This document shows, in pieces, positions 1 through 63,970 of a stretch of 64,000 bases of DNA. The notes under the pieces are model-generated. The model saw only the letters and a list, made by a program, of their open reading frames with translations. It had not been told where the DNA came from and ran no database searches. Source of the DNA: Cristatella mucedo (taxonomy: Eukaryota; Bryozoa; Phylactolaemata; Cristatellidae); assembly GCA_009760855.2 (NCBI GenBank), contig WPIO01000001.1, forward strand, positions 7,063,001-7,127,000, read 5' to 3'. Numbering within the stretch: position 1 is the first letter of the stretch; every line of letters begins with the position of its first letter. Made by a program: the position numbers and the translations under genes.

Positions 1-115
1 CCGTCGAGGCTAACTCCAAGCTCCCCAACGTCGACGCTGAGGAAAGATAAGAAAGATGACTCCAGTTTCCTGGATAAGATTGGCACCATTGGGCGCAAGA
101 AAAAGGCCAGGGAAG
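1..115 (+). CDS. PARV: Parvin exon 1 (partial, N-terminal tail)
   Basis: Frame 1 encodes a serine/threonine/proline-rich stretch, then KDKKDDSSFLDKIGTIGRKK. This matches the KKDDSFLGKLGGTLARRKK region of vertebrate alpha-parvin. The donor is GTCAGC at 116 and the exon ends in phase 1. No start codon is in the window, so the exon or an upstream one begins off the left edge. Confidence 0.9.
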
Positions 116-61700: not shown

Positions 61701-63970
61701 AGTCTGGAATTTGCTTCTGGCTACGGTCAATGCATGCGCTGACCTTTCATCATGTAAGTCTTAGCTTAAGATGTATATGTTCAGGTCAGCTTTCCATTTT
61801 CTGCATGGAGCTTGTCTTTTTTGTTCGAATGTGCTTTGCATACATATCCGTGCATGATTTAGTGCATGTGACTAGCTTGGGGTCTTAATAACCTATGGCC
61901 ATGAGTGTTTTCATGCTTGCTTTAGCAAGCTGACCTAAGCATGATGGTTGTCTGCTTTTGCTTGCTTGATACCATGTCTGTCACTAACCCTTGGGTATTC
62001 TCCTGCAGTGAGTTGTAAAACGCCCGGTCAGAGATTTAAGTTCTCTTAGGTTATTATATAAATGACCTATTGTAATTAGTATTAGTATTTCTCCTCTCTA
62101 ACATGCACTGGCTTCTCGGTCAGCAGAGCATCGACTGTGTCCTGTCACAAGTTTGTGTAGATCTCTTTATTATCTTCCTCTGGCTTACCAAATGAAATAC
62201 TTACTCCTCGGATATAGTGTGAGTAGTAGTACACTGAGGCGTGGCTTGGCTTTCTCTTGCCAGCTGAAGCTGCACATAGTGAGGCCTGCCGTCCCAGCAA
62301 CCCCGTGAGCACGTGACTGTCATGGACTTGTCAGTGTAGTCAGCAGTTCTCCACGGTCTCTCTCTCTCTCCCTCCCTCTCTCCCTTCCTCTCTCTCCCTC
62401 CCTCATCGTGCTGCCGCTTTCAACATCGGAAAGTAGCGACTGGACGATGTAGATTTTTGATGCTGTTGCTCACTGGATTGGTTTTGTTATTAGTGGGGTA
62501 TTTTATCTTGCAGTAAGAGTCAGTGATCTAGGTGCTCTGCTGTTCCACTGTAGAGCTTCACCTGCAGCTGCCTCCGTCTCATCATCGTCCTCTTGTACAC
62601 AGGAAGTATGATTAAGAATACTATTTGTCAGCTGCTGTTGGGTGCTAGTGGATTAGTGACAGACCAACAGCTCTAGTGTGGCATTCGAAAGCCTAGTTTT
62701 GCATGAAAGAAGATTCTTTGGATTATGCTGGAGGGGCGGAGTGGGCTGGAGATGGGGGTGGGAGCATGTGGTTGCAAGCCTTGCCTTTTCCATGAATCAT
62801 AAAGTTGGTTTTTTGGTGGTCACTCGAACCTCACCGACACGATTGTATCAGTGCTTGTGAGTTCATCTTGATATTACCCTCACCATTCTGAGTTATATAG
62901 TGAATATACGGCTGCGCCTTGACGGCGGCGTTTTTCTGGCATTGTGGCTTTTTGCTTCGCTCAATCGCACTGCCCAGAAATCGGTGGCTCGTGATCTTCA
63001 TTGCTGGAGTCAGAGCCTTGTCATTAAAACTTACAAATAGCGACTAGCTGCAGTGCAAGGCTATTAAGCTGTGACAATGCAACATCATGGGCTGGCTTTG
63101 AATCCTCTGCTGCTGGCGCCAGTTTGTCGGTGACAGGCCCTTGCTGGTCTTACTGATCCTTAACTCGTTAATGCATTTCCATCGGTCCTAATTGTAACCC
63201 GGGGTCAGCATTCACAGTATCAGTGGTGGTGTTGGAGATGGGGCATCTCACCAGTCGTCCATCTTAAGTTAGTTTATCGAGGTGCCCTAAACCAGGATGT
63301 GTTTCGATTGACACACTTCTGATCTGTCCACAGTTGTACGCCCGTTCGTTGTCTCCCTCAATGAATGTCATGCTCTCCTGTGCTCTGGCAGCAGTCCTCC
63401 AGATCGAGAGAGACTCATAAGTCAGTCTGTTTCGTGTCGGCTTGTGGGTGGGATCATTAGGGGTCACTCTGTGTACCAGCACCTAAAGCAGTAGTATGTC
63501 AGATCCTGTATAACAATGCTGGGCTTGGTGTTTATAAGCCACCATATTTTGCTAAACATATTTGCAGCGATTAGAACCACCCTGCTGTTTTCTGCATGCT
63601 TGCTACCGGTATGGTCTGACCCCTTCCCGTGCTGATTGTTTCGGCAGCTTGCTGGTCGTCAGTGTTTCCTAGCCCTATACGCTGGCTCTCTTTTCTGTAC
63701 CATTGCAGTACCGCAAGCACTACTTCGTTCAGCTCGGCGGGGTGCCACCATCGTACAGTGACCCGATGCTGGAAGTAAGGCTTGCTCGCTCGGCCACCGG
63801 AGAGGCTCATGCTCGGCGGTTGCCTTTTTTCACTGCCACATGCCCTTGTTTGCTTCTGGCAGGCGGTGGACGTCAGGCAGATCTACGACAAGTTCCCCGA
63901 GAAGAAAGGCGGCTTGAAGGATCTGTATGAAAAAGGACCGCAGTCGGCATTCTTTCTCGTCAAATTCTGG
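49490..63970 (+). CDS. TEAD: TEAD/Scalloped transcription factor (7 exons, 3' end cut)
   Basis: Joined exons: 49490-49757 (first ATG 49505), 50199-50341, 51124-51321, 53858-53904, 54341-54581, 63709-63774, 63863-63970. All junctions keep frame and introns are GT-AG. From the ATG they give 352 residues of an expected 430-450. An acidic, glycine/serine-rich N-terminus precedes the TEA domain (about 46-128: [52 protein letters not shown]). A proline-rich linker with MSSAQIVSA follows, then the YAP-binding domain from about 255 ([58 protein letters not shown]). From family knowledge, TEAD binds GGAATG-type sites in the nucleus and recruits YAP/TAZ or Yorkie. The protein is complete so far, with no frameshift. 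The rest of the YAP-binding domain lies to the right. Confidence 0.97.
49758..50198 (+). other. TEAD intron after the first TEA exon
   Basis: 441-bp intron with a G10 tract at 49789-49798; otherwise nothing recognised. Confidence 0.88.
50199..50341 (+). CDS. TEAD: TEAD exon with DNA-recognition helix
   Basis: Acceptor TGCCATTTAG, donor GTAAGT. Phase 1 in, phase 0 out. It encodes [40 protein letters not shown] and QLKACATV. The last five residues have no counterpart in the vertebrate KLK-DQ junction. Confidence 0.97.
50342..51123 (+). other. TEAD intron 2
   Basis: 782-bp intron with a CA/GA-rich simple repeat at 50413-50482 and no other recognised element. Confidence 0.88.
51124..51321 (+). 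CDS. TEAD: TEAD linker exon
   Basis: Acceptor CGTTTTCAG, donor GTAAGG. Phase 0 in and out. It encodes [20 protein letters not shown], then [20 protein letters not shown] and a proline-rich end. [15 protein letters not shown] is shared with vertebrate TEADs. Confidence 0.96.
51398..51462 (+). repeat. (GT)n microsatellite
   Basis: Mostly uninterrupted GT with one GTTT and one GAGT step. Confidence 0.95.
51794..51822. repeat. 11-bp hairpin beside (CT)n
   Basis: CACTCTCCGTG and its exact complement are separated by 7 nt, 14 bp before the (CT)n tract. Confidence 0.75.
51837..51938 (+). repeat. (CT)n microsatellite, 51 units
   Basis: 102 bp of uninterrupted CT. Confidence 0.97.
53641..53766 (-). 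repeat. SINE family B, inverted
   Basis: On the - strand: CTTGGCCCACTGGTTAAGG, ATCGTGGGCTCGAGCCCCG, then GTATGTGAAGAGACTGACTA and TTAAGTTCTCTGGGGGCGC. It ends 91 bp before the 47-nt TEAD exon. Confidence 0.83.
53858..53904 (+). CDS. TEAD: TEAD 47-nt linker exon
   Basis: Acceptor TGTCATTGTAG, donor GTAAGT. Phase 0 in, phase 2 out. It encodes [15 protein letters not shown] and the first two bases of D. It is needed because the flanking exons end in phase 0 and start in phase 2. The peptide occupies the position of FWPGMIQTGQPGSSQD in human TEAD1, and the join gives DMKPYTYP against DVKPFVQQ. Confidence 0.88.
53905..54340 (+). other. TEAD intron 4
   Basis: 436-bp intron, nothing recognised. 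Confidence 0.85.
54341..54581 (+). CDS. TEAD: TEAD exon, linker to start of YAP-binding domain
   Basis: Acceptor CGCATCTGTAG, donor GTGAGT. Phase 2 in, phase 0 out. It encodes [14 protein letters not shown], a G/P/V-rich linker, then [20 protein letters not shown] and [13 protein letters not shown]. Confidence 0.97.
55081..56137. mobile_element. Palindromic Tc1/mariner element made of two inverted 3' halves
   Basis: The right arm (55798-56137) read on + encodes [13 protein letters not shown], then [39 protein letters not shown] and a stop. The left arm (55081-55683) read on - encodes [15 protein letters not shown], then [20 protein letters not shown] and [13 protein letters not shown]. The NPIE(N/R)LW motif is the Tc1 transposase signature around the last catalytic residue. 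Outer ends GCATGTGAAAATATTT and GACAGCCCGGAAAAACA are inverted repeats. The loop is 55684-55797. Repeat R sits inside the left arm only. No N-terminal transposase is present, so the element is non-autonomous. Confidence 0.88.
55183..55410 (-). repeat. Repeat R inserted in the palindrome's left arm
   Basis: TAATGTATCTC tail at left and CTGGAAAGGAT at right on +; it matches 14585-14825 and the reverse of 35371-35600. The right arm of the palindrome runs straight through the corresponding point. Confidence 0.87.
57381..57472 (+). repeat. (CT)n microsatellite, 46 units
   Basis: Uninterrupted CT; preceded by TCTGTCTGTGTGTCTGTC. Confidence 0.97.
57775..58180 (+). pseudogene. L2-type reverse transcriptase relic
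   Basis: [20 protein letters not shown] and [17 protein letters not shown] match the LGVLFQSDLSLDDHISS and KSAYF region of the copy at 35.1 kb. Frameshifts and stops follow ([13 protein letters not shown] continues in another frame). Confidence 0.82.
58451..58614 (+). repeat. SINE family A
   Basis: CCTAGCCCACGGGTAAGGTG, TAGGTTCGAGTTATGCAGTG, TTATCGCCCACTGCAAGTG, CTATATAATTGAGGCTCTTA and AATCTGCTAACC. Full length. Confidence 0.85.
61354..61453 (+). repeat. (CT)n microsatellite, 50 units
   Basis: 100 bp of uninterrupted CT. Confidence 0.97.
61480..62090 (+). mobile_element. Degenerate L2-type LINE 3' end
   Basis: [20 protein letters not shown] matches the LPRTNLKSFGDHAFSSYA block of the 4.7-kb copy. 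A related tail follows (GCAGTGAGTTGTAAAACGCC, TTAAGTTCTCTTAGG). The frame is broken. Confidence 0.75.
62098..62225 (+). pseudogene. L2-type reverse transcriptase fragment
   Basis: [20 protein letters not shown] resembles the LHWLPVKQRIDFKVLSLTF block. No tail is attached. Confidence 0.6.
63709..63774 (+). CDS. TEAD: TEAD exon, YAP-binding domain
   Basis: Acceptor GTACCATTGCAG, donor GTAAGG. Phase 0 in and out. It encodes [20 protein letters not shown] and LE (fly RHLFVQLGGKPSFSDPLLE). Confidence 0.97.
63863..63970 (+). CDS. TEAD: TEAD exon, YAP-binding domain (last in window)
   Basis: Acceptor TGCTTCTGGCAG, donor GTACGA. Phase 0 in and out. It encodes [20 protein letters not shown] and [16 protein letters not shown]. 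The next exon (ADLN... in relatives) is outside the window. Confidence 0.97.

Follow-up and report, generated by a model that had tools for sequence, protein, structure and literature searches.

The DNA considered here is a stretch of 64,000 nucleotides from the genome of the bryozoan Cristatella mucedo (C111:7063001-7127000, hereafter the window), which lies on a contig of 24.8 Mb (C111) in a genome of 572 Mb. It carries a parvin gene followed head-to-tail by a TEAD gene, both on the + strand. The exons were mapped by tblastn with human PARVA and TEAD1 sequences; the PARVA matches ran along the + strand from base 16 to 27151 and those of TEAD1 from 49556 to 63970. The spacing between the two genes (27157 to ~49490) was 22.3 kb, bearing out the order, the shared + strand and the distance of about 22 kb proposed in an earlier reading of the letters alone (the original prediction). 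A correction is needed for the gene ends, which exceed the window, the end of TEAD by ~12 kb. The pairing is that of the only copies found of both genes in the genome: all six genome-wide PARVA matches fall in the window gene, and both genome-wide matches to the TEA domain are exons of the TEAD described here. The two are thus adjacent single-copy orthologues, with no gene recognised between them by scans of limited sensitivity.

When joined, the 11 coding exons of parvin gave an intact frame of 380 residues with no internal stop and with AG/GT at all 10 introns, a gene model drawn from the genomic sequence. Exon 1 (1..115), which has its start codon 36 bases ahead of the window, exon 2 (1766..1929) and exon 5 (10854..10969) were placed by tblastn and by the joined frame, as was exon 4 (9120..9266), whose end was picked by eye and is backed by the open joined frame. 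Matches in the PDB were additionally available for exon 3 (7554..7656, in the first calponin homology domain, CH1), exon 7 (24308..24389, CH2), exons 8 (24768..24836), 9 (24940..25041) and 10 (25155..25227), and the last coding exon (27081..27157, stop codon at 27155-27157). Exon 6 (17658..17716), which codes for the divergent linker between the CH domains, was missed by tblastn; in a scored scan it was the top AG-preceded candidate in its 13-kb intron (score 32 vs 19 at the next different site), and it leaves the joined frame open. Both CH domains were nearest to alpha/beta-parvin: the spliced C-terminal one matched beta- and alpha-parvin structures (phmmer, E 1.7e-63 to 2.8e-59, with beta-parvin at 1.7e-63) and one N-terminal CH exon matched alpha-parvin (E 7.6e-11), while the raw-frame Pfam CH match in exon 3 reached 20.3 bits, under the cut-off of 26. 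Genes nested within parvin were looked for with Pfam, and the + frames of 1-30 kb returned the parvin CH exon alone, the - frames of 1-27.3 kb just a weak transposase match (HTH_Tnp_Tc3_2, E 0.026).

TEAD spans from ~49.5 to 76.2 kb, with its last exon near 76.07-76.18 kb, beyond the window. Two matches to the TEA domain (55.7 and 31.8 bits) are both above the Pfam cut-off of 25.1, the exons of this domain match TEF-3/TEF-1 in the PDB, and a YAP-binding domain follows downstream (Pfam YBD, 2.9e-16). The PDB searches, which name alpha/beta-parvin and TEF-1/TEF-3, and the Pfam matches to TEA and the YAP-binding domain are independent of the human query sequences. All the exons in the window are on the + strand and were located by tblastn: the first coding exon found (49490..49757, also Pfam TEA), the second half of the TEA domain (50199..50341, also Pfam and PDB), a linker exon (51124..51321), the start of the YAP-binding domain (54341..54581), and two further exons at 63709..63774 and 63863..63970, the latter also supported by Pfam YBD and followed by the rest of the gene to ~76.18 kb. 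They have acceptor and donor sites, but the junction from 51321 to 54341 is out of phase, indicating that a small exon or an alternative splice site was missed. An acceptor-like AG stands before the first coding exon found, and an upstream 5' exon of TEAD probably lies in the gap.

The original prediction had named an overlooked gene between parvin and TEAD as the kind of finding that would undo it. Such a gene was looked for by Pfam, codon scan and CpG content, and none was recognised, with limited sensitivity. The six-frame Pfam scan of 27152-49551 (stops as X) recognised no protein family on either strand of 27157-49490 beyond low-complexity or weak matches, and the codon scan of the gap was empty. 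Matches to Atrophin-1, DUF3915 and PRP38_assoc were judged low-complexity; the weak ones were to FAM176, SelP_N, AIM3 and DUF4519 (E 0.039 to 0.72), and an EVA1A query used to follow up FAM176 gave weak matches only in the gap, the best being RE-rich at 37.1 kb (E 0.40), so that this candidate was rejected. Neither ARAGORN nor Rfam (gathering score) found anything in the window. As a reference for sensitivity to short exons, the codon scan picks up, within the window, 3 of 11 exons for parvin and 5 of 6 for TEAD, and Pfam on the + strand shows a single parvin exon, below cut-off. The ratio of observed to expected CpG in 1-kb bins was 0.34-0.74 across the body of parvin (2-31 kb), rose to 0.80-1.61 between 31 and 49 kb and was 0.38-0.86 in TEAD (49-64 kb). 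Sharp borders outline both gene bodies, depleted at 2-31 and 49.5-73 kb, with 31-49 kb free of depletion. In many invertebrates, such depletion is the mark of methylated gene bodies. Insofar as methylation can be read from CpG, the profile would mark the borders of the two genes, with no indication of a third methylated one. We have annotated 31001..49000 (no strand) as intergenic on the basis of this profile and of Pfam, and it probably holds the TEAD promoter and the 5' exon or exons.

These 18 kb of CpG-rich intergenic DNA ahead of TEAD are one of the features expected if the pair were a genomic regulatory block, i.e., if parvin were a bystander whose introns or 3' flank carry TEAD enhancers, so that breaks are selected against. 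The low self-repeat coverage of the parvin intron region (0.024 in the 10-20 kb bin) points in the same direction, and so does the persistence of the pair even though five other gene families of human 11p15 have no match on C111 (see below). However, self-repeat coverage of the gap is ordinary (0.106, compared with 0.163 upstream and 0.118 downstream), and the gap holds a LINE-like fragment (resembling a long interspersed nuclear element) near 35 kb, identified by eye. Nor was there any excess of TEAD sites in parvin or in the gap (in the latter GGAATG 11 vs 9.6 expected); two TEAD patterns were within one standard deviation above expectation, or below it, in all five stretches analysed (60 Markov resamples each). 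These motif counts are a proxy for autoregulation, weak and not a defining feature of a regulatory block. Counts of the CTCF core showed no excess. Furthermore, human TEAD2-4 and PARVB/G are not known to be paired, which would make the link dispensable for the paralogues. We regard a regulatory block, which is compatible with common ancestry, as unlikely to be the reason for the persistence of the pair.

The next recognised genes past TEAD are a CDKN1-type inhibitor of cyclin-dependent kinases (+) and a KCNQ1-type channel gene (-), arranged tail to tail. The CDI exon of the first (C111:7168718-7168858, at 105.7 kb in window coordinates, ~30 kb past TEAD) scored 50.5 bits against Pfam CDI, for which the cut-off is 25. 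The second extends over C111 ~7171612-7189469 (108.6 to at least 126.5 kb); a joined stretch of 116 residues scored 219 bits with KCNQ1, 153 with KCNQ4, 151 with KCNQ5 and ~143 or less with KCNQ3 and KCNQ2, and one exon was 97% identical over 32 residues to KCNQ1, placing the gene nearer to KCNQ1 than to KCNQ2-5. Between 74 and 114 kb, Pfam (E up to 0.1) listed the families YBD (from TEAD), RVT_1, CDI and KCNQ_channel, plus two of low complexity. Parvin, TEAD, CDKN1 and KCNQ1 are thus four consecutive recognisable genes within ~130 kb, the Pfam scans of the 200 kb of flank having covered -70 to -50, -40 to 0, a 1-kb piece of 64-74, 74-114 and 134-154 kb. The CDKN1-KCNQ1 stretch (104-137 kb) is mostly without CpG depletion, with a minimum of 0.75 at 122-125 kb. 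Farther on, 134-154 kb gave weak Pfam matches (Trypan_PARP, Atrophin-1, DUF6548, Auts2 with E 0.0023 and Orthoreo_P10 with E 0.054) that are probably low-complexity; beside them, CpG is depleted at 140-152 kb, perhaps in the body of another gene.

A second pair of the same kind was found on another contig, C67 (756 kb), which carries two of the three CDKN1 matches and one of the two KCNQ matches of the genome, among the matches listed. The CDI matches are at 453749-453892 (+) and 363054-363197 (-) and the KCNQ_channel match, the only other one among those listed, at 472859-472960 (-). The CDI at 453.7 kb and the KCNQ at 472.9 kb are tail to tail as on C111, 19 kb apart, and one exon of the latter is nearer to KCNQ1 than to KCNQ2 (62 vs 49 bits). 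The CDI sequences of the two contigs are strongly different, indicating that C67 is not a haplotype copy, and genome-wide searches gave no TEA or parvin match on C67. The pair there is probably an old duplication of the CDKN1-KCNQ pair.

The original prediction had stressed that human PARVA and TEAD1 adjoin on 11p15 in the same order and orientation. Their order and strand are the same as here, with a gap of ~145 kb between them (vs 22 kb here), and human KCNQ1 and CDKN1C are tail to tail. The adjacency itself is supported by a passage of one publication, which lists two flanking genes, PARVA and TEAD1, for an 11p15 site (PMC2928786). The presence of four families as consecutive recognised genes would be hard to explain other than by common ancestry of the arrangement. 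We therefore consider it very probable that the parvin-TEAD pair is an inherited gene order, an orthologous microsynteny that forms part of an old four-gene neighbourhood. An ancestor shared by this animal and vertebrates would have had the neighbourhood parvin-TEAD-CDKN1-KCNQ1, and on human 11p15 the ancestral block would survive split into PARVA-TEAD1 and KCNQ1-CDKN1C, pairs that now lie apart. For an assumed gene number of ~20,000, the chance that one named gene directly adjoins another on the same strand is of the order of 1 in 10^4 to 10^5. Independent origin of the adjacency in two lineages would require such an event plus a second coincidence for CDKN1/KCNQ1, and even considering that the comparison covers just two lineages, with one published passage for human (PMC2928786), we judge it extremely improbable.

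That the order was inherited does not by itself say why it persisted. Conserved neighbour pairs are common among slowly evolving animals, and across animals they reportedly number in the hundreds (Irimia 2012), so that finding one in a random window is unremarkable by itself. Slow rearrangement in both lineages, with a pair that is not under selection, agrees with this and with a block that includes CDKN1 and KCNQ1-type genes, without a role specific to parvin. Neither neighbour belongs to the integrin pathway, which suggests inheritance of a larger block rather than a partnership of parvin and TEAD. A functional tie between ILK and Hippo as the cause of the linkage gained no support here. What speaks against such passive retention is that families of human neighbours, MICAL2 for one, have no listed match on C111, indicating that the order was reshuffled around the pair. 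On balance we think it reasonably probable, and likelier than a regulatory block as the reason for persistence. A bolder and rather improbable possibility is that parvin-TEAD-CDKN1-KCNQ1 was a pre-vertebrate regulatory neighbourhood, in which the tail-to-tail CDKN1-KCNQ1 arrangement would predate eutherian imprinting by hundreds of millions of years and would have been kept after duplication (C111 and C67) through shared long-range control. The parvin-TEAD pair illustrates well a phenomenon already known, conserved microsynteny, and the invertebrate CDKN1-KCNQ1 arrangement is the more interesting part. If the block is ancestral, two closely studied loci of human 11p15, PARVA-TEAD1 and the growth-control domain KCNQ1-CDKN1C, tie to one invertebrate neighbourhood of ~130 kb. 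It would then offer a simple outgroup for two questions: do TEAD and CDKN1, which respectively drive and restrain growth, have enhancers in common, and is the KCNQ1-CDKN1C arrangement older than its imprinting?

Several observations weigh against an inherited four-gene block. The upstream side contains a ZNF362/384-type zinc-finger gene (-34.0 to -15.7 kb, - strand, C2H2), a CDK11-like kinase (near -61 kb, +) and a TONSL-like gene (-92.9 to -87.9 kb, +), all named by eye, and the human relatives of the TONSL-like, CDK11-like and ZNF384-like genes lie elsewhere. From -40 kb to 0, Pfam gave RVT_1 and C2H2 zinc fingers, along with a weak match to Mat89Bb (E 0.06). Five more families with members on human 11p15 had none of their 32 listed matches on C111: TUB (at least 1), BTB_3 (BTBD10/KCTD20, at least 7), bMERB (MICAL-type, including MICAL2, at least 7; this domain cannot separate MICAL from its relatives), NAP (NAP1-type, at least 15) and coatomer beta (COPB1, at least 2), on contigs not known to be whole chromosomes. 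The lack of listed matches for all five indicates that the shared block is small. Likewise, an ARNTL query had no match at E 0.5 across the 264-kb region. With CDKN1 and KCNQ matches also on C67, the copy that would correspond to human CDKN1C is ambiguous. The comparison is of this genome with human, the latter represented by one published passage. Short exons are easily missed by the gene scans, as the weak recovery of parvin itself shows, and a gene that has short exons, evolves fast or is unmethylated may sit in the gap. In human, ZNF384, TEAD4 and CDKN1B are all on 12p13, and this shared location is possibly the trace of a paralogon.

Some observations in the same genome are independent of this locus. 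The single Tub-family match (C507:1724324-1725073) takes in nearly all of the domain (2-256 of 256) within a single open frame, which leaves the domain without an intron. The mitochondrial contig C688 (21,008 bases) has nad1-nad6-cob-nad4L-nad4-nad5 on one strand (genes by eye), an order also known from molluscs and other lophotrochozoans, with nad2 and cox2 opposite in strand to the remaining recognised genes. It also contains a ~2.1-kb tandem duplication plus a partial inverted copy, one translated stretch being present at 11632, 13747 and 3078. More COX1-like pieces were found on C166, C83, C549 and C299. In the literature searched, supplementary files excluded, we found no discussion of PARVA-TEAD1 gene order in evolution; a macaw paper has both names in an unrelated table, and an amphioxus paper has tead1a among demethylated genes and no parva. 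A literature search for KCNQ1 and CDKN1C synteny in invertebrates gave one paper, on TH/INS.

There are three known systems with which this locus can be compared. In human PARVA-TEAD1, like here, the parvin and TEAD genes adjoin, according to the passage cited above (PMC2928786). The setting differs. MICAL2, RASSF10 and TEAD1 are the neighbours of Xenopus mgat4g that were used to locate the human chromosome 11 region (PMC12616123); in place of MICAL2 and RASSF10, ZNF384-like and CDKN1 genes are found here. The second system is the imprinted domain of 11p15.5 that, in Ager et al. (2008), contains both CDKN1C and KCNQ1, with a wider IGF2-CDKN1C region conserved to chicken and imprinting of CDKN1C reported as a eutherian acquisition (PMC2427030). 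As in that domain, a KCNQ1-type gene adjoins a CDKN1 gene; unlike it, the pair here comes directly after TEAD and nothing points to imprinting. Finally, neighbour genes kept across phyla have been described as ancient microsynteny of metazoans and as genomic regulatory blocks (PMC8851819). Neighbour genes have been kept here too; regulatory constraint would be hypothetical at this locus.

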